Positions 2,424 to 22,074 of a stretch of 23,125 nucleotides of DNA are shown in pieces. The notes beneath the pieces are model-generated. The model was given only the letters and a program-made list of their open reading frames with translations. It was not told the DNA's origin and ran no database searches. The position numbers were made by a program, and so were the translations under genes. The DNA is from a virus. Positions within the stretch are counted from its first letter, which is position 1; each line of letters starts with the position of its first letter. The stretch lies in IMG/VR virus record IMGVR_UViG_3300017781_005396, positions 1 through 23,125 of that record; one strand, 5' to 3'.

Positions 2424-2900
2424 ATGTTTGGAAGAAGTTTATTTTCTTTAATGATTGTAGGAATGGGATTCTTTATTTTGACAATAATGCTTGGTCCTAT
2501 ATCAAAGCAAGTTAATGAACTAAGAACAGATGCTCAATTAGATACAGGATTAGCATGTACAACAGGAGCAGCAGAGACTAGCTGTACAGTTACTTTGAGT
2601 AACAAGTCAGCTTATGAGCCTACTGCACCTAATTGGACTGTCACAGAGACTTCTCCTGGATCATCTAATAAGACATCTTCTTCAACACTAGATTCTAACC
2701 TTACAAGTGTTACCATTTCAGGATTATCTAATGGCACTTCTTATGTATTTACTGTTGATTATTTCAAGGTAAATTCTGAGGTAAATTCTGCTAGTAATTT
2801 GGATTCAGTTTTAAAAAGATGGAATCTTCTTCTAGTAGTTGGCTTGATGGCAATTTTGGTCGTTGGAGTGGGATTTAGTTACAACTATGCAAAAGCATAG
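2424..2900 (+). CDS. Two-membrane-segment protein with an external Fn3-like domain (158 aa)
   Basis: An N-terminal hydrophobic helix (LFSLMIVGMGFFILTIML) is followed by GPISKQV, a ~95-residue Ser/Thr-rich ectodomain, and a second helix (LLLVVGLMAILVVGVGF) with a very short tail (SYNYAKA). The ectodomain has the end of a fibronectin-III/Ig-like fold (VTISGLSNGTSYVFTV) and a possible Cys pair in LACTTGAAETSCTV. Helix-loop-helix with a short C-terminal end is the topology of the two downstream coat-like proteins, so this may be an enlarged relative displaying a decoration or binding domain. There is no clear AGGAG site before the start. Confidence 0.75.
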   Translation: MFGRSLFSLMIVGMGFFILTIMLGPISKQVNELRTDAQLDTGLACTTGAAETSCTVTLSNKSAYEPTAPNWTVTETSPGSSNKTSSSTLDSNLTSVTISGLSNGTSYVFTVDYFKVNSEVNSASNLDSVLKRWNLLLVVGLMAILVVGVGFSYNYAKA

Positions 2901-2928
2901 TTTGTAAAATTTGTAAATATAAGTATTT

Positions 2929-3153
2929 ATGGAATTTAGAAAATTAGCATCCATAGTGTTAGCTATAGCTTCGCTTTTAGCGTTTCTAAGCATCATGCCT
3001 ATTATAATCGATTCAGCCAACTCTTCTTCAGCAGATACACTTGCTACAGGAGATCAGGCTACAGCCTCGATGATTAAACTTCTTCCTCTTCTTGCTTCAA
3101 TATCAGGACTTGGAGTTAGTTTATTAATAATCATGAAAATAAAAAAAGGCTAA
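2929..3153 (+). CDS. Two-helix coat-like protein A (74 aa), paralogue of the next gene
   Basis: It starts MEFRKLASIVL, with one hydrophobic helix to IMPIIIDS, a ~20-residue polar loop rich in Ser/Thr/Ala, then IKLLPLLASISGLGVSLLI and a KKG end. It aligns along its whole length with the gene at 3221 (ME..K.....L.....FL...P.II.S....IKL.PL.AS..G....LI...KG). Length, two helices joined by a small polar loop, and a short basic tail are the hallmarks of the VP1/VP3-type coat proteins of spindle-shaped archaeal viruses. I rely on topology and short motifs, not a database match. No strong ribosome site is visible. Likely a virion membrane/coat protein. Confidence 0.75.
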   Translation: MEFRKLASIVLAIASLLAFLSIMPIIIDSANSSSADTLATGDQATASMIKLLPLLASISGLGVSLLIIMKIKKG

Positions 3154-3220
3154 TCAATGTGTCAGCTTATAAATTTTTAAAGATAATTCTATAGATCACA
3201 GAGAAAGAAGCAAACTCGTA

Positions 3221-3442
3221 ATGGAAGTTTCAAAAATTACAGCAATTATACTTAGTGTCGTTGTGTTAGTTGCATTCCTCGCTGTGCTACCTACTATTAT
3301 TACATCTACAACTGCTGCAGTAACTGCTGCAGGAACTGACTATTCAGACGTAGGTGCAATAATTAAGTTAATTCCATTGGTGGCATCAGTTGGTGGTATC
3401 GCTGTGGCAGGTCTAATAGCCTTTCAAGCAGCAAAAGGATAA
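3221..3442 (+). CDS. Two-helix coat-like protein B (73 aa), candidate major structural protein
   Basis: MEVSKITAIILSVVVLVAFL forms helix 1, a Thr/Ala-rich loop follows (residues ~28-46), and IKLIPLVASVGGIAVAGLIA forms helix 2, ending FQAAKG. It is the paralogue of the 2929 gene. Its codons differ from the neighbours: GTC, GTG, CTC, ATC and GCC occur in a short gene within a genome that otherwise prefers A/T-ending codons. A strong hairpin follows 20 bases downstream. Both are typical of the most highly expressed structural gene, so I take this as the best candidate for the major coat protein. An AGAAAG ribosome site is weak. Confidence 0.75.
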   Translation: MEVSKITAIILSVVVLVAFLAVLPTIITSTTAAVTAAGTDYSDVGAIIKLIPLVASVGGIAVAGLIAFQAAKG

Positions 3443-4876: not shown

Positions 4877-5281
4877 ATGGCTTATGTATCAACAGAAGAT
4901 AAAAAAGAGCTTTCAGTAGGCATAAAAAAAGTTCTTAAAAAATATGGCATGAAAGGTACTATTGCAAGAAGTTCAACTAAATCAGGTATAGTTGTAAATA
5001 TTAAATCAGGACCAATAGATTTTGATATGCAAGACGAATATGAAGATGTTAATGTCTATCACATAGATAGAGATTATAAAGGTACTGCTAAAAATTTTCT
5101 TAGTGAATTACTTTCTGCTATGGAAGGACCAAATTACTATAACAAAGATGATTGGCAAGTAGATCATTTTGATAGATCACATTATACAGACATCAACATA
5201 GGCACATATAACAAGCCTTACATAAGAACACCAAAAATTAAAATGCCTAAATCTAAATCAACAAAAAAGTATAGGAGTTAG
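4877..5281 (+). CDS. Conserved phage-type small protein, LPD29-like (134 aa)
   Basis: The opening MAYVSTEDKKELSVGIKKVL continues KKYGMKGTIA, a basic segment, VVNIKSGPIDF, a middle KGTAKNFLSELLSAM and an end HYTDINIGTYNKPY. This order matches a widespread family of small phage and bacterial hypothetical proteins that I recall as related to large-polyvalent-protein domain 29. Function is unknown in that family; it is soluble and common in marine phage genomes. Here a basic tail (PKSKSTKKYRS) is added after the conserved part and matches the tails of neighbouring genes. The ribosome site is AAGGAG at 4864-4869. Confidence 0.75.
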   Translation: MAYVSTEDKKELSVGIKKVLKKYGMKGTIARSSTKSGIVVNIKSGPIDFDMQDEYEDVNVYHIDRDYKGTAKNFLSELLSAMEGPNYYNKDDWQVDHFDRSHYTDINIGTYNKPYIRTPKIKMPKSKSTKKYRS

Positions 5282-5283
5282 TT

Positions 5284-5454
5284 ATTTCATTTCCATTTCT
5301 TATATTAGCAGGAGTTTCTTGCCTTATATTAGCAGGAGACATTCAAACTGATGCAGCTACTAAGGATATTCCATTAGCGATTATGCTTACTTATGCCTTA
5401 TCAGGATTATTTTTCTTTTATGGAGTAGTGAGAGTGTTTAGGTTAGTAAGATGA
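5284..5454 (+). CDS. Two-helix membrane protein (56 aa) with apparent ATT start
   Basis: An open frame fills the whole gap from the 4877 gene to the 5451 gene and ends by ATGA overlap with the latter. It has no ATG, GTG or TTG at its head. The AGGAG at 5273-5277 is placed six bases before an ATT codon, so ATT is the likely initiator. The product has two hydrophobic helices, the first with a repeated LILAG (FPFLILAGVSCLILAG), then DIQTDAATKDIP, then a second ending FFFYGVVRVFRLVR. Length and topology resemble the coat-like proteins at 2929 and 3221. A sequencing error in a lost ATG is the alternative. Confidence 0.5.
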   Translation: MSFPFLILAGVSCLILAGDIQTDAATKDIPLAIMLTYALSGLFFFYGVVRVFRLVR

Positions 5455-6611
5455 GATTTTTCAGATTCGTAAATATAAAAAAAAAATATTTTTCATTTGC
5501 TCTAGCAATTAGTTTTATTGCTATCAATTTATCATTTAATTCAGATACGATTGCTGCTCAACAGCCTACTCCTGTTCCAACTCCTACTGCTGTTCCTGTT
5601 ACCTCATTACCTCCTCTTAGCATCAAAGAAGCCATTGGATTCAATAATATAGCTACTTCATCATCAGATGATTTCTTAGTTCTTATACGATTTGATTTAG
5701 ATATTGGTACAGGTCCAAATGAATTTTGGTGCAAAAGTGATTATTTAATTAATGCTACAGGCTGTGAATTAGATCCTCCAAATCCTGATTATCCTTTCTC
5801 ACTTCGTGAAGGATATGTATATATAGAATATTTAGATTCAGCAGGTACAATTCACAGACAAAATAGAAAAATTCCTAGAATTGATGCAGGATTAATGGGA
5901 ATATATGCAGAATCTCCTGCAAGTTCATCTTTTGGATTCAATCAATCTTTACTTCCAGGAAAAGTATGTTTAAGATATGCTTCAGATTTTTTTGATACAA
6001 ATGGAAATGGATCATGGAATTGTAGGCAAGTATCAAATATTTCAGGAGGCACAACTGCATTAGCAAATGAGATATCTTCAGATTCAGGAATACTATATAA
6101 CCTCGAAAATCAAATCGGATTGCCTCTAAACACACTTGTAAGCGAAAGAGGTATGGTAACTCCTACAGGTCAAACTTATTTAGAAGAGGCATTACAAGGA
6201 ATTGTAGATGTAGCTGTTAATTCAAATGGAAATACAGTTTTTCAACTAGGTGCAACTCTTACAAATAAAGATTATGCTCCTACAGGATATAATATTCCTC
6301 TTCAAGATAATATCTTAGCTACTGCTACAGCTTCAGGAGTTACAGAAAATATGGAATATGTATCTTCTGAATATTTAGGTTTTTCAAGTTCAATGTTTTT
6401 TGGAGGATTGATTTTTCTCTTACTCGCATTGTTTGTTGGTGGAGTAGTCGTAGCCACAACTAAAAATGCCTTATTGTCTATTCTTTCAGCATCAATGATG
6501 ATGTTACCTGGAATTTTCATAGGTGCAGTTTCAATAGCATTTCTATTTACTATGCTTTCAGTATTCATTGTATTTGGATCATGGTATTGGCTGAGAAGGA
6601 GTCCTGAATAA
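5451..6611 (+). CDS. Surface protein: signal peptide, Pro-rich linker, ectodomain, C-terminal membrane helices (386 aa)
   Basis: A basic N-terminus and hydrophobic segment (residues ~14-36, ending DTIAAQQ) form a signal peptide, followed by a Pro/Thr linker (PTPVPTPTAVPV). The ectodomain (~60-310) has two probable Cys pairs (WCKSDYLINATGC; VCLRY...WNC) and an Asp/Asn-rich turn DTNGNGSW. The last ~74 residues hold two or three membrane helices and end RRSPE. It overlaps the upstream and downstream genes by one to four bases. Layout resembles the spikes or adsorption proteins of enveloped and filamentous viruses. PTP-type linkers are frequent in Chloroflexota and some archaea, a weak host hint. 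No family recognised. Confidence 0.8.
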   Translation: MRFFRFVNIKKKYFSFALAISFIAINLSFNSDTIAAQQPTPVPTPTAVPVTSLPPLSIKEAIGFNNIATSSSDDFLVLIRFDLDIGTGPNEFWCKSDYLINATGCELDPPNPDYPFSLREGYVYIEYLDSAGTIHRQNRKIPRIDAGLMGIYAESPASSSFGFNQSLLPGKVCLRYASDFFDTNGNGSWNCRQVSNISGGTTALANEISSDSGILYNLENQIGLPLNTLVSERGMVTPTGQTYLEEALQGIVDVAVNSNGNTVFQLGATLTNKDYAPTGYNIPLQDNILATATASGVTENMEYVSSEYLGFSSSMFFGGLIFLLLALFVGGVVVATTKNALLSILSASMMMLPGIFIGAVSIAFLFTMLSVFIVFGSWYWLRRSPE

Positions 6612-7180
6612 TGAGTGGACGTTTGGTGGGTACATTATTTTTACCATATCTTTTAATATCTTTGTTAGGTCAAATGTCAGAAGGCACATTTTCTAGTTCT
6701 GTATCAACAGGAGAATTGATGGTAAATGAGATTTATGATGCAAGATTATCTGAAGCTGATGCTGCAGGTACAGCTTCATTTACAGGAGGAAATACTGTTA
6801 ATAAATTATCTACAGGATTTACTTTTTTAACTGATGCTACAGGCACAATTTTAGGCTTTACTAAAAATCTATTCAAAATTATTACTTTGAATTATTCATG
6901 GTGGTCAAGTTGTAAACAATCAACTGATAATGATCCAGGTTATAATTCAGCAGGAAATTTGCTAACAGGAGGTACAGGAAATTGTTATATAGATTCACAA
7001 GGAGTGGAATATAAAGATTCTCCTATGGCTTATGTATTTGTTAGATATTTAATTCTAATAATGGCTTTACCTGGAATTTATATTTTGAGTTACTACTCAG
7101 CTCAATTAATGAGCAGATTTATCAGTTCAATCGGAAGTTCTATAGCAGGTTTGGCAAGTTTTATTCCAGGATTAAGATGA
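6611..7180 (+). CDS. Membrane-anchored protein with N-terminal signal/anchor and C-terminal helix (189 aa)
   Basis: The start overlaps the previous stop as TAATG. A hydrophobic N-terminus (VGTLFLPYLLISLLGQM) precedes a ~110-residue Gly/Thr-rich exposed region with a Cys pair (SCKQ... and GNCYIDSQG). A C-terminal hydrophobic helix follows (VFVRYLILIMALPGIYILSY), then an amphipathic end SSIGSSIAGLASFIPGLR that could lie on the membrane surface or be fusion-peptide-like. It sits between two larger surface proteins and probably forms a complex with them. No family recognised. Confidence 0.8.
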   Translation: MSGRLVGTLFLPYLLISLLGQMSEGTFSSSVSTGELMVNEIYDARLSEADAAGTASFTGGNTVNKLSTGFTFLTDATGTILGFTKNLFKIITLNYSWWSSCKQSTDNDPGYNSAGNLLTGGTGNCYIDSQGVEYKDSPMAYVFVRYLILIMALPGIYILSYYSAQLMSRFISSIGSSIAGLASFIPGLR

Positions 7181-8625
7181 TGTTATTAAAATTAAAAGAT
7201 AAACCTAAAAAATTAAGTAATTGGTTCTTAGCTAGTATGCTTTTTATTTTAGCTTTTACACTTTGGTTTTCTCAAACTCCTGCTTGTTTAAATGCTGCTA
7301 CTCTATCTGATTATTGTTATAAATTTGATATTTCAGTTAGAAATGATACAGGATCAAATAAATCTTATTTCCCTGTTTTATTAGATGGAGTAAATATGAA
7401 TGAATGGGATTCAAATGATTATATTGATGACTTCGCATGGTCAATATTTCCTTATCAAGCATCTTTGGTAGATGAGTATCAAGTTTTATTACAAGATATA
7501 AATTCTCTATCATCAAATCAATGGTATGTATTTCCTTCTCTTTCTGCATCAGGTACTAATAATTTAAATGTTTTATTAGGTGCTAAAGATATACAAAGAA
7601 ATCAAGGAATATTTTTTACAGGATTAGACTATGTAAAAGTCGATAATCATAATGATTTTAATCAAACTAATTTTGAGATAAATGTTGAATTTAATGATGT
7701 AATACAAAATGAAATGTCATCTAGTGTTTATACTATTTTAGAAAAATATGATGAGGCTACCTTTCAGGGATTCAAATTAGAAATAGTTAATAATTCAGCT
7801 ACTTCAGGTACAGGAGATATTTTCATTAGAGGCTATTCTGATAATTCTTCTATTCAATCACATACATTTATTCCTTCAGGTAATGAAAATATAGAATTTA
7901 AACTAAATACAGGTAGTCTAGATTTATCTGTAGATGGAACATCAGCATCAACTGTTACAGGTGCAACTCTTACATCTAATACTGAGGATCTTTATATAGG
8001 AGCAACTTTTAACACTACCTTATCTAAATATTTAGATAATACAGTTATTAGAGTTGTTGATATGGTATTTGGAGGAAATTTAGTAGCTTACTATGGTTTT
8101 AATCCATCAGATATAGCACAAACATCAGCTTCAAATCCAAATTATGCAGGATCAGTTTCAGATATTTCTTTTAGTACAAATACTCATAATGCCAATTATT
8201 TTTTCAATAGAGATCAAACAAATATAAATGTAGTAGCTTCAAGAATAGTTCCTGCTACTGCATCAGGAAGTACAATTTTCTCATCAGAAACATCAGATAT
8301 TATCGGAAGATGGTATGGATCAGGAAATCCAAATAATCTTGCAACTACAAATCAAAACATGATCGGATTATCTTTTTTAAATCCTCCTGCTGATTTGGGG
8401 ATGCCTGATACAGTTTGGTTTTCTCTTTGGCTTTCAGCTATAGGAATTGCTATGGGTATAGGAGTTTTTTGGATTTTTAATAATACTCCTGTAGCTATGT
8501 TTGGTGCATCATTTCCTCTAGTTTTAGGAAGTATGCAGGGATTAATAAATACCTGGTTTATAGTTCTTTGGTTTATGTTCGCTATAAGTATATATTCAAT
8601 GTCTCAATGGTATGAAAGGAGTTAA
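7177..8625 (+). CDS. Large surface protein: DUF2341/ConA-like ectodomain with C-terminal membrane helices (482 aa)
   Basis: A signal-like segment (~18-42, ending QTPACLNAA) is followed by a domain beginning DYCYKFDISVRN and containing SYFPVLLDGVNM, which recalls DUF2341-type modules. A probable concanavalin/LamG-like beta-sandwich follows (FEINVEFND, FKLEIVNNS, IEFKLNTGSLDLSVDG, LYIGATF, VVDMVFGGNLVAYYGF). The last ~75 residues have two or three membrane helices. It overlaps the preceding gene at ATGATG, so the start may be 7177 or 7180. ConA-like folds bind glycans in many surface proteins, so receptor binding or particle decoration is plausible. Domain assignment is by eye. Confidence 0.8.
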   Translation: MMLLKLKDKPKKLSNWFLASMLFILAFTLWFSQTPACLNAATLSDYCYKFDISVRNDTGSNKSYFPVLLDGVNMNEWDSNDYIDDFAWSIFPYQASLVDEYQVLLQDINSLSSNQWYVFPSLSASGTNNLNVLLGAKDIQRNQGIFFTGLDYVKVDNHNDFNQTNFEINVEFNDVIQNEMSSSVYTILEKYDEATFQGFKLEIVNNSATSGTGDIFIRGYSDNSSIQSHTFIPSGNENIEFKLNTGSLDLSVDGTSASTVTGATLTSNTEDLYIGATFNTTLSKYLDNTVIRVVDMVFGGNLVAYYGFNPSDIAQTSASNPNYAGSVSDISFSTNTHNANYFFNRDQTNINVVASRIVPATASGSTIFSSETSDIIGRWYGSGNPNNLATTNQNMIGLSFLNPPADLGMPDTVWFSLWLSAIGIAMGIGVFWIFNNTPVAMFGASFPLVLGSMQGLINTWFIVLWFMFAISIYSMSQWYERS

Positions 8626-8768: not shown

Positions 8769-10139
8769 ATGAATAAATTTAAACAAAAAATAAAAAATAT
8801 TAGAATACCTTTTAATCAATCAACTATGGCATTTGCATTTTCAATATTTGCAGTAGCATTTGCAGTTGGCTCATTTGATTCTCCTTGTTTATCTGCTCAA
8901 TCAACTTGTGCGATTGGATCAGATAATATTTTTAGTGGGAATATAAGTTTGAAAGGAGGAACAGCTAATAAAGGTACTTTTGATGCTGCAGGAATGACTG
9001 CTGATAGAACATGGACCTTGCCTGATGCTTCAGGAACATTAGCTGTAGCAGGTGCAACTCTTCCTGCTTCTAAAGTAATGGCTACTGATGTATCAGGAAA
9101 TGAAAGCACAACTAATGTTTATCCTCTTTCATTAACTTCAAACAGTCCTTTAAAAACTGATGGAACAGGGAATCTGACTGCAACTGATTTAGATCCTGAA
9201 ACTGATTTAACTATTGGAACAGGATTAGCAAATCAGGTATTAGGAGTAAACTCAGGAGCATCAGCTTTGACTTTTACATCAATAACAGGAGTTCCAAGTT
9301 TAACTGCTGATAAAAGTGTAGCCACAGATGGTACAGGAGCTTTAACTACAACTGATGTTTATCCGTTAACACTTACAGCATCAACTCCATTAAAAACTAA
9401 TGGATCAGGCGAAGTAACAGCAAGTGATCTTGATATTACTACTGACATTACTCCAGGATCAGCATTGCAACAAATTAGAACAAATGCTGCGGGAAATTCG
9501 CTTGAATTTTTTACTCCTAGCGGTGGTGGTGCTTATACCTTAATTGATAGTGGAACTATAATTGCAAATCCAGGTTCTTCTGATGAGGTTTTTACTTGTT
9601 GGTACGGAAATACGCTAGATGGTACGAAAAAATATAAATTAATTTTTGATGGTGGTACAGGTTTAAATATTGGTGCTTCAGGATATAATCCTGGATATGT
9701 TCCTATTGAAGGCGATTGCACTTTAGCAAAGCAAGAGTGGGAAGCTAATTCATATTATGCTACAGCACAACTACACGTAGGAACTAGAGCAAATTCAGAA
9801 TATGAAACATATGGAAATAAATGTTATACAATACAAGGTGCAGATCCTAATCATGCTTCAAGTTTGGCATCTAATATACAAGGGCATATACAATTCTCCG
9901 CAGTAGACAATGGTAATGGTTATGGCTTATGGTCGGAATATAAAATGTCAGCAGTAGTAACAAATGGAAGTGGAGTTGTACAAAGTCCAGGAATACAATG
10001 GGCTACTGGTAGTTGTTTAGTATGGGATCAAGCATATACTAATCCATTTTCTGACATAACTGGATTTATGCACTATTTTGAAGGGGGCTTTCCTGCTCCG
10101 TTAACTAGAAAATGGGCATTATATGAAATTGATTATTAA
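8769..10139 (+). CDS. Signal-anchored phage-fibre-like protein, putative receptor-binding protein (456 aa)
   Basis: AAAGGAG at 8756-8762 sets the start. A basic N-terminus and hydrophobic segment (residues ~19-36, ending SPCLSAQ) form a signal or anchor. FDAAGMTADRTWTLPDASGT (71-90) is a motif common in tailed-phage and marine-phage tail fibres. Two shaft repeats follow with a period of 80 residues (101-146 and 181-226, sharing VYPL.LT...PLKT.G.G..TA.DLD). From ~240 there is a different globular C-terminal domain of ~210 residues with several Cys. Fibres of tailed phages are cytoplasmic and lack signal peptides, so this one seems adapted to a membrane-bound particle. The C-terminal domain shows more G/C-ending codons (TCG, ACG, CCG, GGC), as in a swapped receptor-binding tip. 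Confidence 0.8.
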   Translation: MNKFKQKIKNIRIPFNQSTMAFAFSIFAVAFAVGSFDSPCLSAQSTCAIGSDNIFSGNISLKGGTANKGTFDAAGMTADRTWTLPDASGTLAVAGATLPASKVMATDVSGNESTTNVYPLSLTSNSPLKTDGTGNLTATDLDPETDLTIGTGLANQVLGVNSGASALTFTSITGVPSLTADKSVATDGTGALTTTDVYPLTLTASTPLKTNGSGEVTASDLDITTDITPGSALQQIRTNAAGNSLEFFTPSGGGAYTLIDSGTIIANPGSSDEVFTCWYGNTLDGTKKYKLIFDGGTGLNIGASGYNPGYVPIEGDCTLAKQEWEANSYYATAQLHVGTRANSEYETYGNKCYTIQGADPNHASSLASNIQGHIQFSAVDNGNGYGLWSEYKMSAVVTNGSGVVQSPGIQWATGSCLVWDQAYTNPFSDITGFMHYFEGGFPAPLTRKWALYEIDY

Positions 10140-10386: not shown

Positions 10387-13300
10387 ATGGTAAATGATCC
10401 TTTAATGGATGAAGAAAGAAATAGAGAAAAAAAACAATCTCAGGTAATTAAACCTGCTGATAATTTTATTCCCTATGATCCAAATACTGATGAAGAAAGA
10501 TCATCAGGAGAATCTTTTAATTCAGGATTAACTCTTCCTCCTGAAAATCCTCCAAAAGTTGAACCAATAAATTATAATTTAGAAAAACCTTCTGATCCTA
10601 CTGCTGAAATTTCTCCTGCACAAAGTTATCAATTAAATCCTGTAGAAATAAAAGAATTTAGAGAAGAAGAATTATTAAAGCCTCCTGCAATAAAACCAGG
10701 AGAAAATCCTTATTACATAAATGAAGAAGCAGGAATAATAAATCCAAGAGAATTAGATAAATTAGAAACTCGTACTGAATCTTTTATGCAAGATGCTGAT
10801 ATGTTAGATAGGCAAATTACAGAATTTAATAATACCTATGATGAATTTGCTTCTGATATTGATAAAGATACAGAAGAATTAAATCAAGAATTTAAACAAA
10901 TTGATCTTTTATATAAAAATTCATCAAATAGAGATGATGATTTTTGGGAGGAATATAATACAAGATGGGATGCTGCAGAATTAAAAGATAAAGAATTAGA
11001 TAAAAAAGTGGATATGTTTAATTCTTTTTACGATGCAAACTCTCCTTTTTTAGATGATAGAGAAGCATCTGTAAAAATGAGAGAAAGATATATAATGCGA
11101 GATTGGGATGCAATCGGAGATGAATTTGAATTGCCTCCTGAAATCTCTTCAGGCGATATCTATGATCGTGATTTACCTCAATCTTCATTTTATTTAGAAA
11201 CTCCAGGAGATATCTATGATCGTGATTTACCAAAATATCCAACAAAAGAAGATATCCAATTTACAGATAGATCCCTAGAAGTTCCTGGAGAAGAAATAAT
11301 TGAAGAAAAAGACATTCAATATACTGATCCTTCATTAGAAAATCCTATTAATTTTTATAAACCTGAAATAACAAAAGAAGATATCCAATTTACAGATAGA
11401 TCCCTAGAAGTTCCTGAAGAAAGAACATTAGAAGAAAAAGATATAAATTTTGCAGATATTAATTTAGAAGAAAACTATCAAAATAGATTTAGATCAAAAG
11501 AAATTCCTGATCCTATATTAGATACATCATTAGAAGTTCCTGATTCTGTATATGAATCAAGGTCCTTTTTTGATAGAGCAAAAGATAATGTTACAGGCTT
11601 TGAATTAGGAAGCATTGTAGGAAAGGGCGATTCAGCTTTATCTCCAACAGTTGGAGGAGTAGGTAAAGCAGGTAAAGTGGCTGTTAGTGGAGCATGGGTA
11701 TTATCAGGAGCAGATTATTTAGTAGATCAGGCTAAAAACATTCCAAATTTAAGGGTTTTTGATCCTAAAGGATTTACAGAAGATGAAGTTAAAGATGGTT
11801 CATTTATTGATAAAGCTAGAAATGTATCTGATGTAGATGATTATTTAGTTTCTCTAGCAGGTCAAGTTGAAAGAGGAATTAATATAATTCCAACTCCATC
11901 TTATAAAGATACTGATGGAGATGGAGAAAAAGAATTAACCTGGAAATCTATTCAAAGAGATGATCCTACATCTTATGGAGCATTAAGAATGGCTGATGAA
12001 AAAAGAATGGATCTTCCTTTTGGAGATATATTTTTTTCATCGCAAGAAAATTTAGATACTTTGAGAGAAACTGAAGGTAAATCAGGAAATCCATTTGATG
12101 AAGATTTTGATGAAAGAAGATTTGGTGCATTGGCTACAGATAAATTTCGTCCTGTTGATCTTGCCTTAACTTTGGCACAAATAAAGGTATTAGGAAGCCT
12201 TGTAAAAGGAGGAGCAAATTATGGAATAAGAGGCATTAAAAATTCATCACAAATGCTTAATTCAGGAAAAAGAATAGTTCAAAATAATATTCCTGATAAT
12301 ATGCTAACTGCTCAACAAATGGTAGATAAAGCATATTATAAATCTTATAAAGGATCACAGGATATAACAAAAAAAATAGATGATGTTCAGGAAGATATTG
12401 AAAAAGTTTTAGCAGGTCAAAGAATTGGCTCATGGATATCAAGAAAACCATCTCCTCAATTAATAAAAAAACTTGAAGATTTACAAGAAGAAATTGCTAA
12501 CTCTACAAGAAAAAATAATATTGCTTCATTTCGAGGTAAATTAGATATAAAAAAAGTAGATGGAACAGCTACAAAAAAAGAATTAGAAATTTTAGATATA
12601 TTAGAAAATAAGCAGAAAGATCAAGTAATAATAGCAGAAGCTAAAACCATAGATAGAGGATATAAATTTACTGATAAAGAAGGTCCTTATGGAAAGGAAA
12701 TGCAAGAAATTGTAAAAGAAACTGATGATTTATCTCAACTAAAAGAAAATTTAAATTATGTTGAAAAAAGATTCCCAAATTTATCAGGTACTCCACAAGC
12801 TGAAGAATTAGCTAAAAAGCTAACAGGAGGTACAGTAACAGGCAAATTATTTGATGATGCAGGAGGATTAGGAGCAGCGAAACTAAATCCTGATGTTCTT
12901 AGAAATCCAAAAGTTATGGCTGAAATCGAGGCAAATATAATTAAAGCTCAGGAATTAATTGATGCTAAAAAAAGATTACCTGATGGAAGATATGGTCAAG
13001 AATTATTAAGAGATACAGTAGAAAATGCAGATGCTCAATATAAGGCTTTATATAAATTAGATGACTTATATACAGATGGAAAATTTGATTACGATAAATT
13101 AGATGAATGGCTGAATATAACCTGGAAGCCTGGAAATAAATATAGAGCATTTGTAGATGATGCTTATGGAAAAAATAAAGGTACAGTTTTAAGGGATTCA
13201 AACAATCCATTTTTTAAAGTTACAGGTACTAAAATTAGTTCTGAGAATCAAGGTGGAGGAAGTCAAACTTTACCTGATGGAAATTTTAAAACAGGTAAAG

Positions 13301-14169
13301 GAAGTCCTGAAGGAAATAAACCTGCTTCTGAAAAACTAGAATCTCAAATAACTGATTTAGAAGGACCAAAAGGAAGAGGAATGAAGGGAATAAATGATCC
13401 TGAAGATTCACAATCATCAACAGGTAAAACTCAAATGCCTCCTCCAAAAGATATCCCTGATAAGCCTGATCCAAATGATAAGCCTGATCCCAAAGATTCT
13501 CCTGAAACTGATCCTAAAGATTCTCCTGAAACTGATCCTAAAGATTCTCCTGATCCCAAAGACTCTCCTGAAAGTACATCTAAAGGTAAAAAAGGTAAAT
13601 CTTCAGATGCTTCTGCTAAAGGTAAATCAGGTAAAGGTAAAAAAGGAGATGAGGGTAAATCTGAGGGAGGTAAAGGTAAGAAAAAATCTAAAACTAAAGG
13701 CGATGATGGAAAAATAAAACGTAAGGGTAAAAAAGGTAAACCTTCAAAGACAAAAGTTAAGACAAAATCAAAAGGAAGAAAAGTTAAAAGAAAAAAAGGT
13801 AAAAAAATAATTAGATTAGGAGATGGATCAGATAATATTGTTACTCCTGATTTAGATGTTGATTCACAATCAATAAAGCCAAAAAGATTTGCAGCAAAAA
13901 TCCAATGGAAAGAAAACAATAAATATTATCAATTTGATTTCAATAATAAAAAAATAACTAGATCAGATGATCCTGTAGGATCAGGAGTTAAGAAGGGTAA
14001 AACTCCATCAGAAACAGTCAAGATAATCAAAAGGCAATCTAGGAAGCCACGATATCAAAAAGCTATCTTAGGAAGAATTGAAATAAGATTACAATCTCCT
14101 AACTCAGTAGCTTTAAAAAATTTACCAAATTACAAAACAATTACAAAAGTAAGCAATTTTAAAAAATAG
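10387..14169 (+). CDS. Giant repeat-containing protein with histone-H1-like lysine tail (1260 aa)
   Basis: The largest gene (about 16% of the circle), with AGAGG as ribosome site. Residues 1-~390 are acidic, Pro-rich and repetitive: GDIYDRDLP twice (from ~257), EDIQFTDRSLEVP twice, and related units. A middle part (~400-880) looks globular, with a weakly hydrophobic Gly/Ala stretch near 419-445 (VGKAGKVAVSGAWVLSGADY) and a Ca-loop-like DTDGDGEKE near 514. From ~1034 come DPKDSPET repeats, then ~75 residues of Lys/Gly/Ser (KGKSGKGKKGDEGK type) resembling histone H1 or phage DNA-condensing tails, then a ~115-residue basic C-terminal domain ending VSNFKK. I infer a virion protein that binds or condenses the genome; no homologue is recognised. 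Confidence 0.85.
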   Translation: MVNDPLMDEERNREKKQSQVIKPADNFIPYDPNTDEERSSGESFNSGLTLPPENPPKVEPINYNLEKPSDPTAEISPAQSYQLNPVEIKEFREEELLKPPAIKPGENPYYINEEAGIINPRELDKLETRTESFMQDADMLDRQITEFNNTYDEFASDIDKDTEELNQEFKQIDLLYKNSSNRDDDFWEEYNTRWDAAELKDKELDKKVDMFNSFYDANSPFLDDREASVKMRERYIMRDWDAIGDEFELPPEISSGDIYDRDLPQSSFYLETPGDIYDRDLPKYPTKEDIQFTDRSLEVPGEEIIEEKDIQYTDPSLENPINFYKPEITKEDIQFTDRSLEVPEERTLEEKDINFADINLEENYQNRFRSKEIPDPILDTSLEVPDSVYESRSFFDRAKDNVTGFELGSIVGKGDSALSPTVGGVGKAGKVAVSGAWVLSGADYLVDQAKNIPNLRVFDPKGFTEDEVKDGSFIDKARNVSDVDDYLVSLAGQVERGINIIPTPSYKDTDGDGEKELTWKSIQRDDPTSYGALRMADEKRMDLPFGDIFFSSQENLDTLRETEGKSGNPFDEDFDERRFGALATDKFRPVDLALTLAQIKVLGSLVKGGANYGIRGIKNSSQMLNSGKRIVQNNIPDNMLTAQQMVDKAYYKSYKGSQDITKKIDDVQEDIEKVLAGQRIGSWISRKPSPQLIKKLEDLQEEIANSTRKNNIASFRGKLDIKKVDGTATKKELEILDILENKQKDQVIIAEAKTIDRGYKFTDKEGPYGKEMQEIVKETDDLSQLKENLNYVEKRFPNLSGTPQAEELAKKLTGGTVTGKLFDDAGGLGAAKLNPDVLRNPKVMAEIEANIIKAQELIDAKKRLPDGRYGQELLRDTVENADAQYKALYKLDDLYTDGKFDYDKLDEWLNITWKPGNKYRAFVDDAYGKNKGTVLRDSNNPFFKVTGTKISSENQGGGSQTLPDGNFKTGKGSPEGNKPASEKLESQITDLEGPKGRGMKGINDPEDSQSSTGKTQMPPPKDIPDKPDPNDKPDPKDSPETDPKDSPETDPKDSPDPKDSPESTSKGKKGKSSDASAKGKSGKGKKGDEGKSEGGKGKKKSKTKGDDGKIKRKGKKGKPSKTKVKTKSKGRKVKRKKGKKIIRLGDGSDNIVTPDLDVDSQSIKPKRFAAKIQWKENNKYYQFDFNNKKITRSDDPVGSGVKKGKTPSETVKIIKRQSRKPRYQKAILGRIEIRLQSPNSVALKNLPNYKTITKVSNFKK
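11155..11177 (+). repeat. 23-bp direct repeat, copy 1 (copy 2 at 11209-11231)
   Basis: It is identical to 11209-11231, 54 bases (18 codons) downstream, and encodes the repeated DIYDRDLP unit of the giant protein. The in-frame spacing and DNA identity point to recent unit duplication. Confidence 0.85.
11241..11287 (+). repeat. 47-bp perfect direct repeat, copy 1
   Basis: It is identical to 11370-11416, 129 bases (43 codons) away. It encodes TKEDIQFTDRSLEVP in the N-terminal repetitive region of the giant protein. Perfect identity, including third codon positions, suggests recent duplication or gene conversion. Confidence 0.9.
11370..11416 (+). repeat. 47-bp perfect direct repeat, copy 2
   Basis: Second copy of the repeat at 11241-11287. 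Between the copies lies a diverged related unit (EKDIQYTDPSLENP), so the region is a small array of ~20-43-codon units at different stages of divergence. Confidence 0.9.
13486..13569 (+). repeat. Tandem 24-bp repeats coding DPKDSPET
   Basis: About three and a half units of GATCC(C/T)AAAGATTCTCCT plus GAAACT. They form an acidic Pro-rich hinge in the giant protein just before its lysine-rich tail. Such arrays expand and contract easily, so the length may vary between relatives. Confidence 0.8.
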
Positions 14170-15035: not shown

Positions 15036-15080
15036 TTTTATCTCCTAAAAATTTCAATGTGTTAGGTACATGATAATAAA

Positions 15081-15114
15081 AACTCCTCCAATAAGCAAAT
15101 TTATCGGAGGAGTT
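15081..15114 (-). terminator. Intrinsic terminator of the leftward repressor-integrase operon
   Basis: Arms 15101-15114 and 15081-15094 pair over 14 bp (one mismatch, GC-rich GGAGGAGTT/AACTCCTCC base) with a 6-base loop. Read leftward the hairpin is followed directly by TTTTTATTAT. This complete hairpin-plus-U-tract structure is typical of bacterial intrinsic terminators and lies 80 bases past the integrase stop. Confidence 0.9.
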
Positions 15115-15118
15115 AGTT

Positions 15119-15186
15119 TAGCGAGGTAGATCGCTTGATAGCTTAGCAGTCGTTGTGTTAGTAGCTTTCAAAATCGTGCAGCAACT
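15119..15186. other. GC-richer unexplained segment between integrase stop and terminator
   Basis: The stretch is visibly richer in G/C and CpG than the surrounding DNA (GCGAGG, GATCGC, CAGTCG, ATCGTGCAGC), holds a short AGCGA/TCGCT inverted repeat near 15120, and has no credible reading frame. Position beside the integrase gene and a composition closer to a host tRNA or gene end make it a second candidate for attP. A small RNA transcribed leftward is the other option. It does not fold into a recognisable tRNA by eye. Confidence 0.35.
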
Positions 15187-15193
15187 ATTATTA

Positions 15194-16393
15194 CTATAGT
15201 ATTTTATTATTAGTTACATAAGAATCCATAAAATTCATAGCATCTCTTTTTTGATCTAAAGTATCTTTATAATAAATCATAGTAGTTTCAATGTTACTAT
15301 GACCTAAAATTCTTGAAAGGTCCTGTATAGCCATACCTGATTGTGCAGATCGTGTAGCAAATGTTCTTCTAAAATTATGAGTTTCTACTACACATTCATC
15401 CCTTTTTCCATTCCATTTCCAAAATTGTGGAAATTCTTTTTGGTTAAAAATTCTTCTATACAAATAACTCATAACTACTGCATCTACATAATTTTTTTTA
15501 GTTCTCGAATGACCATTTATTTTTCTAAAGGCTTCTCTAGGAAAAATCAAATCATCTTTCGTAATATTTCTTGATAAAGATTTTTCTTCATAATCTTTTA
15601 TATAAGGCAAGAAATTTTTAAGAATTGGAAGTGTTCTTCTTGCAAATTTTTGATTCCCTTTCATAATATTACTAACTCCATATCTTGTAACAGTATTTCT
15701 AACTTTAATGATGTTATTGTCAAAATCAAAGTCTCTCCAATGAAGTCCTGATATTTCTTCGCATCTCATACCTTGAAATGCTCCAAACTGACCATGCAAA
15801 GTCAATGCAGGATAATGCTTATCGGTAGTTTCCCAAATAAGATTAAGCTCATCAGGAGAAAATATATATTCTCTTTTTTCAGTTATGATTGTAGGAGTAA
15901 TTTTTTTCTTCCAAAATTCTTTTAAGTAATTATTAAAATTTCCAGGTATTAAATTATTCTCAATTCCATAATTAAAAATCTGCATAATTATTAATTTTTT
16001 TGAATCAATAGTAGATTCAGCATATTGTTTAAAATGATTAGATAATTCAATAAAAAATCCATTTCCTATTTTTGATAAAGATATTTTCCCAAAATTTTCT
16101 CCAATAATAGAAAAAGATGCTCTTTCTTTCTCTCTAGTGTTTTTTGTTACTTCCTCCTCATAATCTCTAAAATTAAAATATTTTTCAGCTAAATCTGATA
16201 ATGTCATACTCTTATTTGCAAAATGAGAATCACTTTCTATAATCTGTTGAATTTCTTTTAATTTCTCTTTAGCTTCAATTTTAGTCTTTGCTCTTTTAGA
16301 AATAAATTTATTGTTTTTAGGGTTCTTAATCCTTGCAATATAACCTTGTGATCCATTTTTTGTTATAGTGCCTCCAATTTTTGATTTAGCCAT
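15194..16393 (-). CDS. int: Tyrosine-type phage integrase (399 aa)
   Basis: The N-terminal ~55 residues (GTITKNGSQGYIARI...AKTKIEAKEKLKEI) look like an arm-type/AP2-like DNA-binding domain. A SAM-like core-binding domain spans ~60-165. The catalytic domain has Arg210 (GAFQGMRCEEISGLHW), His339 and Arg342 (THNFRRTFATRSAQ), His365 (ILGHSNIETT) and the Tyr nucleophile at 374 (MIYYKD). All key residues are present at full family length. The start overlaps the repressor stop as TAATG with AAGGAG upstream, so integrase is co-expressed with the repressor. It should integrate the circle at attP; candidate sites lie at 14283-14510 and 15119-15186. Confidence 0.95.
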   Translation of the reverse strand: MAKSKIGGTITKNGSQGYIARIKNPKNNKFISKRAKTKIEAKEKLKEIQQIIESDSHFANKSMTLSDLAEKYFNFRDYEEEVTKNTREKERASFSIIGENFGKISLSKIGNGFFIELSNHFKQYAESTIDSKKLIIMQIFNYGIENNLIPGNFNNYLKEFWKKKITPTIITEKREYIFSPDELNLIWETTDKHYPALTLHGQFGAFQGMRCEEISGLHWRDFDFDNNIIKVRNTVTRYGVSNIMKGNQKFARRTLPILKNFLPYIKDYEEKSLSRNITKDDLIFPREAFRKINGHSRTKKNYVDAVVMSYLYRRIFNQKEFPQFWKWNGKRDECVVETHNFRRTFATRSAQSGMAIQDLSRILGHSNIETTMIYYKDTLDQKRDAMNFMDSYVTNNKIL

Positions 16394-17181
16394 TATAAAA
16401 CTCCTTCATTTGATACAGGTAAATCATTATGAATTTGATTTGATCCATTATATTGAATAGATCGATTTACCTGGATTACCATCCCTGTATAATAATTTTT
16501 TTTCAGCAATCTAGGTTTTTGGGAAATTTGAGTGCCTTCTAATTTATTGTTAACATAATAAAATTTGTCATCAATTTTTTTTATTAAAACAACTGAAGAT
16601 CCTACTGTTCCAAATGCCTTTCTAACTTTACCATGTTGAATAATTGCAAGTCCTTCTGAGATAGGTAAATTGGGATCAACTACTAATCTATCATTAGGAT
16701 TTACTTGTGGGTACATACAACTCATTTGGGATTGAAGTACAAATATATTTTCTCTACCATCTACTCTATTTTTGCTCCAATAAGTAAAATCATAGGCTTC
16801 TTCTCTACTTACTTTTTGATTATGGGTTTTTTGAGAATAAACAGGTACTTCAAAAGGTTCATAAGAATCTAATTTTTTTTCAATTTCTCTCAAAGATTTT
16901 CTAACATCTTCTTTGCTATCTGCATAACTTGTTTCTCCTGTATTTAATGGAAGTACACTTCCTAAAAAATAACCTGCTTTTAATGAAAACAAAGTAGAGT
17001 ATTTATAAATTATTTCTAAGTTAGGAGTAATTTTACCATTCTCATATTTTTGGATAGTTTGAAATGAAACTCCAACCTGTTCTGCTATTTGAGTTTGAGT
17101 CCATCCTTCTTTTATTCTTAGTTCTTTAAATTTATTTGCGATTATCATTTTTTCATTTAATTCAAATTCTTTAATTGACAT
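16393..17181 (-). CDS. XRE-family repressor with S24/LexA-like C-terminal domain (262 aa)
   Basis: I start it at 17181 (MSIKEFELNEK); an ATG at 17211 would add 10 residues but lies inside a palindrome and lacks a ribosome site. Residues ~17-65 form an XRE helix-turn-helix (RIKEGWTQTQIAEQVGVSFQ, TIQKYENGKITPNLE). The C-terminal part aligns with LexA/CI peptidase folds: CMYPQVNPNDRLVVDP (155-170) takes the place of SMxPxIxxGDxVxVD, and VLIKKID (198-204) the catalytic Lys strand. The nucleophilic Ser is Cys155 here, and no Ala-Gly cleavage site follows VPVYS. It is probably the lysogeny repressor, and its activity may not depend on self-cleavage. Confidence 0.88.
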   Translation of the reverse strand: MSIKEFELNEKMIIANKFKELRIKEGWTQTQIAEQVGVSFQTIQKYENGKITPNLEIIYKYSTLFSLKAGYFLGSVLPLNTGETSYADSKEDVRKSLREIEKKLDSYEPFEVPVYSQKTHNQKVSREEAYDFTYWSKNRVDGRENIFVLQSQMSCMYPQVNPNDRLVVDPNLPISEGLAIIQHGKVRKAFGTVGSSVVLIKKIDDKFYYVNNKLEGTQISQKPRLLKKNYYTGMVIQVNRSIQYNGSNQIHNDLPVSNEGVL

Positions 17182-17206
17182 TTTTTTCTTCTTTCTTAAC
17201 TGACAA

Positions 17207-17228
17207 AGCATCCAAAATTTTGGATGCT
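17207..17228. promoter_or_regulatory. 22-bp perfect palindrome before the repressor gene (operator or hairpin)
   Basis: AGCATCCAAAA followed immediately by its exact complement. It lies between the stop of the 73-aa gene and the repressor start. A gapless perfect palindrome suits a dimeric repressor, suggesting autoregulation. As RNA it could form a hairpin, but no U-tract follows leftward. Confidence 0.55.
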
Positions 17229-19495: not shown

Positions 19496-19693
19496 TTGCC
19501 TCGATCAAAAGTACATATCAGATTAGAAGAATTACAAGATGAATTAATTATTGTTAAAAATTGTATAAATGACATTAAATTTAAATATAAGTTAGTTGGA
19601 TTAGTAGAAGCAAAATTAAATGTCCTGGAAATTCAAAAAAAAGATATTTTAAAAGAAATGTATAAGCTAGAGGATAAATTTTTAGATGATTAA
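19496..19693 (+). CDS. Small helical protein (65 aa), TTG start
   Basis: AAAAGGGAG with GGGAG at 19485-19489 is spaced 6 bases from a TTG, the only credible initiator. The product (MPRSKVHIRLEELQDELIIV...) is mostly one long charged helix, with a second ending KEMYKLEDKFLDD. It overlaps the serine recombinase gene by 8 bases and is probably co-translated with it. It might be an accessory DNA-binding factor for that recombinase or for the adjacent AT-rich region; unknown. Confidence 0.65.
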   Translation: MPRSKVHIRLEELQDELIIVKNCINDIKFKYKLVGLVEAKLNVLEIQKKDILKEMYKLEDKFLDD

Positions 19694-20240
19694 AGCAGGA
19701 TTATTTATGAGAGTGTCTACTAAGGACCAAAATACAGAGAATCAGAAAGAAGCATTAACTCAATTAATTACTAATAGAAATTATAAATTAGCTAAAACTT
19801 ATGATATTACAGCTTCAGCTACAGGTAAGGATAACTTAAAGGGCATTAGCTACTTAGATGAAGTATATGAAGATGCAAGATTAGGAAAGATAGATGTATT
19901 AGTTGTTTGGGCATTAGATAGATTAACTAGGAGAGGCGATGGCTATCTATTAAAAATATTTAAAGACTTAGGTAAACATAATGTTCAGGTAATTTCATAT
20001 AGAGAATCTTTTATTGAATCTATAACTGATCCTAGTATGAAAAATGCTTTTTTAAGTTTTTGGGAGTTTATAAATAAGAGAGAATCTGAACAGAGGTCAG
20101 AAAGGCAAAAAGCAGCAATACAACTAATGAAGAAACAAGGTAGGAAGCTAGGTAGACCTCCAGGAGCAAAAGATAAGAAAACGAGGGCAAAAATGGGATA
20201 TTTTGGAAATCAGAATAAATCAGATAAAAGGAGGACGTAA
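19686..20240 (+). CDS. Small serine recombinase, resolvase/invertase family (184 aa)
   Basis: AGLFMRVSTKDQNTENQ carries the nucleophile Ser11 with Arg9. WALDRLTRRGDG (75-86) has the conserved Asp/Arg residues. SEQRSERQKAAIQLMKKQGR is the start of the long E-helix. The catalytic domain is complete. After GRPPGAKDKK the usual ~45-residue helix-turn-helix is replaced by a ~25-residue basic end (TRAKMGYFGNQNKSDKRRT); the GRPPG core looks like an AT-hook. Likely roles are resolving multimers of the circular form or inverting or moving a segment; no invertible repeats were found beside it. Confidence 0.88.
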   Translation: MIKAGLFMRVSTKDQNTENQKEALTQLITNRNYKLAKTYDITASATGKDNLKGISYLDEVYEDARLGKIDVLVVWALDRLTRRGDGYLLKIFKDLGKHNVQVISYRESFIESITDPSMKNAFLSFWEFINKRESEQRSERQKAAIQLMKKQGRKLGRPPGAKDKKTRAKMGYFGNQNKSDKRRT

Positions 20241-20245
20241 CTTTT

Positions 20246-20268
20246 TGATTTCCCTTAAGGGGAAATCA
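20246..20268 (+). terminator. 9-bp hairpin after the recombinase gene, incomplete terminator
   Basis: TGATTTCCC, loop TTAAG, GGGAAATCA: a perfect 9-bp stem six bases after the recombinase stop. An A-run and not a T-run follows, so termination rightward is uncertain. A weaker 8-bp inverted repeat (TCCTAAAA with TTTTAGGA) follows. The rest of the 158-base gap holds only A-rich sequence and the AGAAAGGAA ribosome site of the next gene. Confidence 0.5.
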
Positions 20269-20398
20269 TCCTAAAAAAATTCTTTGAAAAAAAAAAGGGT
20301 TTTAGGAGAAATTTGAGGACTGAGGACAAAAAAACACTATAAAAATAATTTGTCTTATTCCAAACAGGTAAATTCTAAAAATTAGAAAGGAAAAAAAC

Positions 20399-20644
20399 AT
20401 GAAAAAAATTGAAGAAATATATAAATTAAATGAAAAAATTGAGTTTCTTGAATCTGTAATAGAGAAGCAGAAAAGTTTAATGTATCACTACGATAGAGCA
20501 TTGGGAAAAAGTCAGAAAAATAAAGAGATAGATCAAACTGATAAGCAATTAGATATTGATAAAGCCTACCTGGATCATCTAAAAGAAACACAAAATATAG
20601 TAATTATGAGGAAATCAGAGAGAGGATGGAATAAGTATGAATGA
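20399..20644 (+). CDS. Coiled-coil protein (81 aa)
   Basis: AGAAAGGAA sets the start. The first ~35 residues form a coiled coil (IYKLNEKIEFLESVIEKQKS) followed by a charged helical region and a basic end (RKSERGWNKYE). Its stop overlaps the next gene's start region by 8 bases. No enzymatic motif; possibly an oligomeric regulator or replication accessory. Confidence 0.75.
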   Translation: MKKIEEIYKLNEKIEFLESVIEKQKSLMYHYDRALGKSQKNKEIDQTDKQLDIDKAYLDHLKETQNIVIMRKSERGWNKYE

Positions 20645-21065
20645 ACACGATATAAATATGGATATGAAGCCTTCTACGATGGCTGATTTTGAGAATAGGT
20701 ATAAATTGATGGTTCATAACATTTCAACACATCTTGAAGATAAGATGAGTGGTCAATCTGAAATAGTGCAGCTACAGGCGATGAATGGAATATCAAGTTA
20801 TATGGTTCAAAATTATGGATTGGTATTTAGAGAGATGATAAGGCAATTAGAATCCTTTATGGATAGCTTTCAGGAAATGGAGAGTATGAGAGGTCATTAT
20901 GCGATGAAATTTGCTGATTATGATCGATGGAAAGAGCAGAAGGTAAATGAGGTTCAATTTTTTCAAAGAAAATTTCATATTATGATGCGAGAAATTAGCA
21001 GAGAGATAAAAAGATTGGAAAATGATAATAAAAAATCAATTACTGAAAAATTAGAGAATTTATAA
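20637..21065 (+). CDS. Helical Met/Gln-rich protein (142 aa), unknown
   Basis: The product (MNEHDINMDMKPSTMADFEN...) is almost entirely predicted helix, rich in Met, Gln and Glu, with a C-terminal coiled coil (FHIMMREISREIKRLENDNK). It has no membrane segment and no nucleotide-binding or nuclease motif. It lies between the recombinase and the methyltransferase, where phages and plasmids often keep replication or recombination genes, so a DNA-maintenance role is possible but unsupported. Confidence 0.75.
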   Translation: MNEHDINMDMKPSTMADFENRYKLMVHNISTHLEDKMSGQSEIVQLQAMNGISSYMVQNYGLVFREMIRQLESFMDSFQEMESMRGHYAMKFADYDRWKEQKVNEVQFFQRKFHIMMREISREIKRLENDNKKSITEKLENL

Positions 21066-21161: not shown

Positions 21162-21698
21162 ATGGCAAAACTAAAAGTATTTTCAATGTTTACAGGAATA
21201 GGAGGATTTGAACTAGGAATTAAAAATTCAAATATCGAGCATGAGTTAATTGGTTACTCAGAAATAGATCCTTATGCAATAAAGATATTTGAAAAACATT
21301 TTCCAGGAATCAAAAATTATGGAGATGCAACTAACATTCGAGGAGATGAAATCAAAGACTTTGACATCCTTTTTGGAGGATTTCCTTGCCAAGCATTTTC
21401 AGTTGCAGGAAAGCAAAAAGGATTTGACGATACAAGAGGAACACTCTTTTTTGATATCGCAAGGATTCTATCCATTAAAAAACCAAAATATTTGGTGCTT
21501 GAAAACGTTAAAGGTTTGTTATCTCATGGATCAGGGAAAACCTTTCAAAGAATACTTACCATACTCTCCAAATTGGAGTACAGAATTGAATGGAAGATAC
21601 TTAATAGCAAAAATTATGGAGTACCACAAAACAGAGAGAGGATTTTTATTACAGGATATTTTAGAGGAGAAAGTGGATCGAAAATACTTCGTATCTAA
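21162..21698 (+). CDS. DNA cytosine-C5 methyltransferase, N-terminal catalytic part (frameshifted)
   Basis: Motif I is FSMFTGIGGFELG (7-19), motif IV is GGFPCQAFS with catalytic Cys76, motif VI is VLENVKG with Glu114, and motif VIII is VPQNRERIF (154-162). All catalytic residues are present. The frame then ends at residue 178 before the target-recognition region and motifs IX-X, which continue in the +1 frame. So this is the front half of a methyltransferase interrupted by a frameshift between ~21640 and 21690, most simply at or near the T-run at 21643-21647. There is no AGGAG site before the start. No cognate endonuclease is seen; phage methyltransferases like this often protect against host restriction. 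Confidence 0.88.
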   Translation: MAKLKVFSMFTGIGGFELGIKNSNIEHELIGYSEIDPYAIKIFEKHFPGIKNYGDATNIRGDEIKDFDILFGGFPCQAFSVAGKQKGFDDTRGTLFFDIARILSIKKPKYLVLENVKGLLSHGSGKTFQRILTILSKLEYRIEWKILNSKNYGVPQNRERIFITGYFRGESGSKILRI

Positions 21699-22074
21699 AA
21701 AGCTAATGAATACTTTAAGAAGTCGATATGGCAAAGATGGATCAGAAATATTAATTCCTAAATTAACTGAATTAACTTCTAATATGCCTGATGCTAAAAG
21801 AGTTTACGATACAGGTATGGCAAGAACATTAAAAGCATTAGGAGGAGGATTAGGAGCAAAGACAGGCTTATATCAAACTTCAAAAAGTCAAATTAGAAGA
21901 TTAACTCCTACAGAATGTGAAAGACTGCAAGGCTTTCCTGATTCCTGGACTGAAGGATTGTCAGATAGCCAAAGATATAAAACATTAGGAAATGCAGTTA
22001 CTTCAAATGTAGTTACAGCTTTACTAAATGAAATGTTTAGAAATACAGAATATGAAAGAAAATTGGAGAAATAA
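21649..22074 (+). CDS. DNA cytosine-C5 methyltransferase, C-terminal part (target recognition, motifs IX-X)
   Basis: In the +1 frame the sequence resumes as LQDILEEKVDRKYFVSKK, a typical start of the C5-methyltransferase target-recognition region. It continues through ARTLKALGGGLGAKTGLY, motif IX RRLTPTECERLQGFPDSW and motif X YKTLGNAVTSNVVTALL. The frame is open upstream to 21289, but that part is only a shadow of the first half. Alone this fragment lacks the cofactor and catalytic motifs. A sequencing indel, a disrupted gene, or ribosomal frameshifting could explain it. The linker between motif VIII and this region is also shorter than usual. Confidence 0.85.
   Translation, partial: LQDILEEKVDRKYFVSKKLMNTLRSRYGKDGSEILIPKLTELTSNMPDAKRVYDTGMARTLKALGGGLGAKTGLYQTSKSQIRRLTPTECERLQGFPDSWTEGLSDSQRYKTLGNAVTSNVVTALLNEMFRNTEYERKLEK

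Follow-up and report, generated by a model that had tools for sequence, protein, structure and literature searches.

The two small paralogous proteins of 74 and 73 amino acids (aa) described here are, on balance, probably the paired major coat proteins, with a spindle-type hairpin fold, of a temperate, non-tailed virus that has a circular double-stranded DNA genome of about 23.08 kb and most likely infects a marine bacterium. They are encoded in a stretch of DNA of 23,125 nucleotides from the viral record IMGVR_UViG_3300017781_005396, which was analyzed as a whole and is called the window below. The best reading of the gene content overall is that of a temperate, non-tailed, membrane-rich virus. 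A more specific reading, namely a genuine lineage with spindle-type coats that infects marine bacteria, carries an Fn3 domain in the hairpin turn of one coat variant, and controls lysogeny by a CI/LexA-type repressor, is put forward tentatively, as a possibility that falls somewhat short of being probable.

The window is a complete circular genome (~23,081 bp), because its first 44 bases are identical to its last 44 bases and a 162-aa gene on the plus strand, which starts at position 23046 and has its C-terminal part at 1-453, reads straight through the closed junction. This gene has the same length in the sole relative that was found in searches of 2.9 million viral contigs, IMGVR_UViG_3300020470_004551 (hereafter the relative), which is collinear over most of its length. 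Single-protein scans with the ATPase, the coat, the 386-aa protein, the integrase, and the 198-aa protein each retrieved the relative only, as did a search with the coat-motif pattern IIKL.PL.A. A degenerate Walker-A pattern was found in 56 stretches of the 2.9 million contigs, and the known relative was again the only related one. The HK97 coat, portal, and terminase that characterize Caudoviricetes were absent from the Pfam and PHROGs matches of the scanned ORFs of this complete circular genome. Also, no jelly-roll coat of Varidnaviria was matched in Pfam above the cut-off among the scanned ORFs, and a STIV-like Pfam match in the ATPase stayed below it (E 0.16). No DNA polymerase was recognized in the window. 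Charybdis elements, which are marine elements of 4.6 kb (PMC12324425), were ruled out by size and gene content.

Three consecutive genes on the plus strand, at 2424-3442, encode proteins that were originally predicted to share a helix-loop-helix plan, and two hydrophobic helices were indeed found in each of them. The first gene (2424-2900) encodes a 158-aa protein with helices at residues 6-24 and 135-153, a candidate surface-displaying coat or spike of the hairpin type. The second (2929-3153) and the third (3221-3442) encode the 74-aa and 73-aa two-helix hairpins, candidates for the major coat proteins A and B, with helices at residues 9-27/51-69 and 9-27/50-68, respectively. The proposed paralogy of the two smaller products was verified: they are 42% identical over their full length (E 4.5e-11), and their alignment score was reached by none of 5000 segment-preserving shuffles. 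An Fn3-like domain had been postulated for the loop of the 158-aa protein, and PF00041 matched residues 50-117, between the hydrophobic helices, with an E value of 4.5e-4 and 20.8 bits, which is below the curated 25 bits. In the relative, the order of the three genes is kept, the proteins are 91%, 89%, and 96% identical, and the dN/dS values are 0.157 (158 aa), 0.087 (74 aa), and 0.057 (73 aa). Because order, identity, and low dN/dS are kept in this way, the three ORFs are real, constrained genes. The value for the 73-aa protein was the lowest among the ten gene pairs compared, and the two paralogues were among the most constrained, as would be expected for a coat protein, without proving one.

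In spindle-shaped viruses, the major coat protein spans about 70-90 aa and contains two hydrophobic helices joined by a polar turn, and this description fits both paralogues. Judged from the sequences, their likeness to spindle-virus coats appears to comprise more than plan and size. The 74-aa protein and mature SSV1 VP1 could be aligned gaplessly over 73 columns, and both prolines coincide. This score was matched by 0.4% of composition-keeping (per-helix) shuffles, and the score versus SSV4 by 2%. For the 73-aa protein, the shuffle rates were 0.2-0.5% versus SSV VP1 and 0.4% versus His1 (p 0.004), whereas the 74-aa protein was no better than shuffles versus the His1 coat (p 0.37). Accepted His1-SSV coat pairs, which served as a yardstick, gave shuffle p values of 0.0003-0.0007. 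The 158-aa protein has the same plan as His1 gp23 (shuffle p 0.027). A motif V/I-x-L-V/I-P-L had been proposed to open helix 2 of spindle-virus coats. As a small correction, the motif at this place reads IKLLPL and IKLIPL in the window, LNLVPL in SSV1, and WELLPL in His1.

When whole gene sets were compared, the 74/73-aa pair and the SSV1/His1 coats were mutual best matches. The search set of 188 ORFs came from SSV1, His1, and a 40-kb part of STSV1, and the best matches in it were SSV1 VP1 (E 0.025) and the His1 MCP (E 0.086) for the 74-aa protein, the His1 MCP (E 0.0017) for the 73-aa protein, and SSV1 VP3 (E 0.13) for the 158-aa protein. Conversely, when 65 window ORFs were ranked with coat models of His1 and of SSV plus His1, the 74- and 73-aa proteins came out on top, as did the 73-aa protein with an SSV-only model. 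The ranking was also performed with a wider set of 2,315 ORFs from 64 other loci. In this set, the originally suggested profile search seeded from known spindle coats returned the 73-aa protein at the top for the His1 model (E 0.002, next E 1.1); for the SSV-only model, M13 pVIII was first and the 73-aa protein only fourth. With the combined SSV+His1 model, the 73-aa protein came first (E 0.012) and its 74-aa paralogue third (E 1). Alignment of the pair with spindle coats by hhalign yielded probabilities of 7-15%, and about 2% of shuffles were equally good; the profile probability published for a Nipumfusiviridae coat is 75%, which is below certainty though above these values (PMC10866085). 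A coat sequence profile gave no VP1 match in the PDB, and its TALE and GPCR matches were discarded, as they look like repeat or composition artefacts. Taken together, homology of the pair with spindle-virus coats is likely rather than proven.

An AF2 model of the 74-aa protein, based on four sequences and no template, was a hairpin with a pLDDT of 69. In a Foldseek search of 350,542 PDB chains, the first match of this model was 7xdi_A, which is SSV19 VP1, with a probability of 0.87 versus 0.35 for the next match and TM values of 0.75/0.80; the E value of 1.5 was not significant. VIA gave a Z of 8.6 and 2.0 A for 68 of 69 residues, and unrelated hairpins scored about equally, with ATP-synthase c subunits and designed hairpins matching at similar Z. 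Hairpins are common and match many folds.

It is conceivable that the proteins are coats of a membrane-rich virus from an unrelated lineage, perhaps pleomorphic or vesicle-like, and that their hairpin is convergent with that of the spindle coats. A short turn between two hydrophobic helices is an easy solution for very short, hydrophobic proteins, and the equally good structural matches are in line with convergence, as are the weak profile scores and the ATPase without clear homology. However, the mutual best matches were obtained despite many competing membrane proteins, and together with the E value reached by the His1 model and the gapless, full-length alignment with SSV1 VP1 they argue against convergence, which we consider unlikely.

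The bacterial-style switch that had been proposed to accompany the coats was recovered. A tyrosine integrase (PF00589) is encoded at 15194-16393 and a CI/LexA-type repressor with an HTH_3 domain and an S24-like C terminus at 16393-17211, both on the minus strand; in the relative, Peptidase_S24 was above the Pfam cut-off. The bacterial host implied by the original prediction is favored because of these switch genes and of a gene that is shared with a marine bacterial phage. This 134-aa accessory gene of the structural block (phrog_10415; 4877-5281, plus strand) lies 1.4 kb from the coat genes and has a counterpart with 55.6% identity (E 1e-32) in the phage Melnitz, which infects the marine gammaproteobacterial OM43 clade (PMC9004378). 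In all 30 records listed of the 59 that matched, its relatives were phages of bacteria. The gene is missing from the relative and thus was gained or lost after the two genomes diverged, which suggests that the virus and bacterial phages draw on a common pool of hosts. Its match seems to be the strongest of the arguments for a bacterial host, and a marine origin of the window is likewise suggested by this match rather than by sample data. The closest matches of the integrase, with no more than 24-26% identity, were in bacterial phages and plasmids. The relative also carries a gene for the DNA-modification protein Mom, and the matching phage records of this gene were, among those listed, phages of bacteria. 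Each of the genes that point to the host is mobile, and the 134-aa gene is a single accessory gene. We infer from them that the host is most likely bacterial.

If the coats have been read correctly, the host could still be a marine archaeon, and the virus would then be one more archaeal spindle-shaped lineage, equipped with a bacterial-type switch. Spindle-shaped viruses have been described from archaea, including marine Nitrosopumilus (PMC12042106, PMC8491892, PMC10848233), and the low G+C content would fit some marine archaea. Genome scans with the ATPase and the integrase detected no provirus or host genome, the only match being Ezakiella with 24% identity. In contrast, the S24-domain repressor of the CI/LexA type, Mom, and the C5 methylase speak for bacteria, as do the distant affinity of the integrase and the distribution of the 134-aa gene, which is common to an OM43 phage and otherwise to phages of bacteria. 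We thus regard an archaeal host as quite unlikely.

The other candidate structural genes are also located on the plus strand. A conserved 198-aa membrane protein with three hydrophobic segments (629-1225) is a candidate minor virion membrane protein. The 386-aa protein (5451-6611) has a signal-like N terminus and two C-terminal TM helices and is a candidate membrane-anchored surface protein. It is followed by a 189-aa membrane protein (6611-7180) and a 482-aa candidate membrane-anchored adhesin (7177-8625), which has a signal-like start, C-terminal TM helices, and a middle part that is LamG-like at an E value of 0.12 only. The next gene (8769-10139) encodes a 456-aa fibre-like protein, a candidate receptor-binding protein with an N-terminal part that is conserved in the relative. 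The C-terminal part is unrelated in the two genomes (456 versus 553 aa), as in a receptor-binding module swap. A match of the fibre to MH319751, a record classed as a tailed phage (Kyanoviridae), had an E value of 1 and was discarded. A 1260-aa protein with a Lys/Ser/Pro-rich C-terminal part (10387-14169), 66% identical in the relative, is possibly virion-internal.

Alternatively, the small hairpin proteins could be ordinary membrane proteins, for example holin-, pore-, or exclusion-like, of a plasmid or satellite. Small proteins with two TM segments are common, the virion role is read from the genes, and neither Pfam nor PHROGs assigned a structural role to the 74-, 73-, and 158-aa proteins. 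However, the pair is duplicated and has some of the lowest dN/dS values, it is sited among genes for membrane-anchored, adhesin-like, and fibre-like proteins, and it has links to known coats, and therefore this alternative appears very unlikely.

A 291-aa soluble P-loop ATPase is encoded at 1460-2335 on the plus strand, with AGRGVGKT as Walker A and CIDE as Walker B motif. It contains no transmembrane helix, its C-terminal region was modelled as a small helical domain, and the AF2 model had a pLDDT of 37. Versus SSV B251, ATV, and His1 gp16, the ATPase was aligned from Walker A to past Walker B with scores that beat 40 shuffles but were weak (hhalign probability 2-3%), and the spindle-virus ATPases were not recovered in a reciprocal search. 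A weak similarity to Zot was also observed. We infer that the protein is a packaging or assembly ATPase.

Among readings of tiny two-helix coats together with a P-loop ATPase, the best alternative is a large inovirus-like filamentous phage, with helix 1 as signal peptide, helix 2 as mature coat, and a Zot-like ATPase as motor: Inoviridae (M13, Pf1) likewise combine a P-loop assembly ATPase with coat precursors of the same size that contain two hydrophobic segments, the SSV-only model ranked M13 pVIII first, and the window ATPase looks Zot-like on visual inspection and faintly matches M13 pI. This reading is the least probable of those weighed, as the ATPase is soluble and lacks the transmembrane segment by which pI/Zot are anchored in the membrane, no Zot Pfam match and, at the family level among the scanned ORFs, no Rep or ssDNA-binding protein was found (there was one sub-threshold SSB hint, phrog_1410, E 0.056), the coats are alike in composition only, their fit to M13/Pf1 hardly exceeding that of shuffles, if at all (p 0.08-0.71), and 23 kb is far above the genome sizes of M13 (6.4 kb) and Pf1 (7.3 kb).

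Under the preferred reading, that of a temperate virus with spindle-type coats, the 74- and 73-aa proteins would belong to, or derive from, the hairpin coat type of SSV1 VP1/VP3 and His1 gp21. They would be synthesized as hydrophobic hairpins at the membrane and would assemble into a helical or lipid-containing shell, on which the polar turn faces outward. In the 158-aa protein, which would follow the same plan, the Fn3-like domain in the turn would protrude from the surface, and the attachment end would consist of the membrane-anchored 386-, 189-, and 482-aa proteins and the 456-aa fibre-like protein. The role of the soluble ATPase would be genome packaging or assembly, and exit may occur by budding or extrusion. 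The provirus state would be kept by the integrase and the CI/LexA-type repressor, most likely in a marine bacterium.

Several known systems resemble the window in part. His1 (Halspiviridae) has a 73-aa two-helix coat with LLP...LLPL, gp21, which provided the best single-model link to the 73-aa protein, and its gp23 has end helices around a middle domain, as has the 158-aa protein. In addition, the His1 ATPase gene is located near the coat gene, and proteins with a signal and a C-terminal anchor are encoded downstream of the coat. The genome of His1 is linear and encodes a type B DNA polymerase, and the host of His1 is an archaeon, whereas the window carries a pair of coat paralogues along with a CI/LexA-type switch. 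The Fuselloviridae SSV1 and SSV19 share with the window two coat paralogues, a circular genome of similar size, and an integrase. Mature SSV1 VP1 has 73 aa and starts with Glu, and SSV19 VP1 was the first structural match of the 74-aa model. However, SSV VP1 is cleaved from a precursor, whereas the short form is the direct product of the window gene. VP2 and VP4 were not found in the window, and its integrase and repressor are of bacterial type. Plasmaviridae (Acholeplasma phage L2) are temperate, membrane-bounded viruses with circular double-stranded DNA and a bacterial host; they are not known to have a hairpin coat shell. According to published descriptions, Eurekaviridae, Itzamnaviridae, Huangdiviridae, Thaspiviridae, and Nipumfusiviridae, which are metagenomic or marine families of spindle-shaped viruses, have short hydrophobic two-helix coats, often two, and for several of them coat and ATPase are named as shared genes (PMC12451623, PMC9894754, PMC10848311, PMC10866085). 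In contrast to the host favored here, their hosts are archaea.

Paired hairpin coats are already known from SSVs, Itzamnaviridae (PMC9894754), Huangdiviridae (PMC10848311), and Eurekaviridae (PMC12451623). The hosts described for spindle-shaped viruses are exclusively archaeal (PMC12042106, 2025), and we found no literature report of the spindle coat type in viruses of bacteria. If the preferred reading is true, the bacterial setting and the Fn3 domain within the turn of a hairpin coat would be new. With a bacterial member, this coat would have to be older than the divergence of the two domains or have passed between them. Also, the lemon or spindle shape would occur in bacteria as well, and non-tailed marine bacterial viruses would have a wider range of forms.

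Further features were noted in the remaining part of the genome. At the expected S24 catalytic serine, the repressor (16393-17211, minus strand) reads SCMYP in the window versus NSMYP in the relative; the window repressor may thus use a cysteine as nucleophile or may have lost self-cleavage. A C5 cytosine methyltransferase is encoded in two frames on the plus strand (21162-22074), with a 178-aa N-terminal half followed by the next frame. In both genomes (relative L006:711-1701), a +1 frame change divides it at the same position, and both halves match PF00145, at 2-162 and, in the relative, 187-324. The split represents either programmed frameshifting or an enzyme of two subunits encoded by overlapping genes. 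The serine recombinase region at 19686-21065 is absent from the relative's record, where a Mom gene (E 5.9e-27) adjoins the methyltransferase instead.

The non-coding parts of the genome contain two conserved features. A 57-bp direct repeat (14283-14339/14454-14510), with copies that are 96% identical and 171 bp apart, is conserved in the relative and could represent integrase arm sites or an origin. A scan for sigma-70 promoters revealed no excess in comparison with shuffles. The region between the integrase and a 174-aa gene (15074-15184) is strongly conserved in the relative, and its minus strand has a folding z of -4.5. It matches the marine RNA family IMES-2 over the full length at a sub-threshold score (21.1 versus 54.7 bits), which is only a lead, as the match was missed by the default-filter search and control genomes also gave signals. 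The minus strand of this region reads as an intrinsic terminator.
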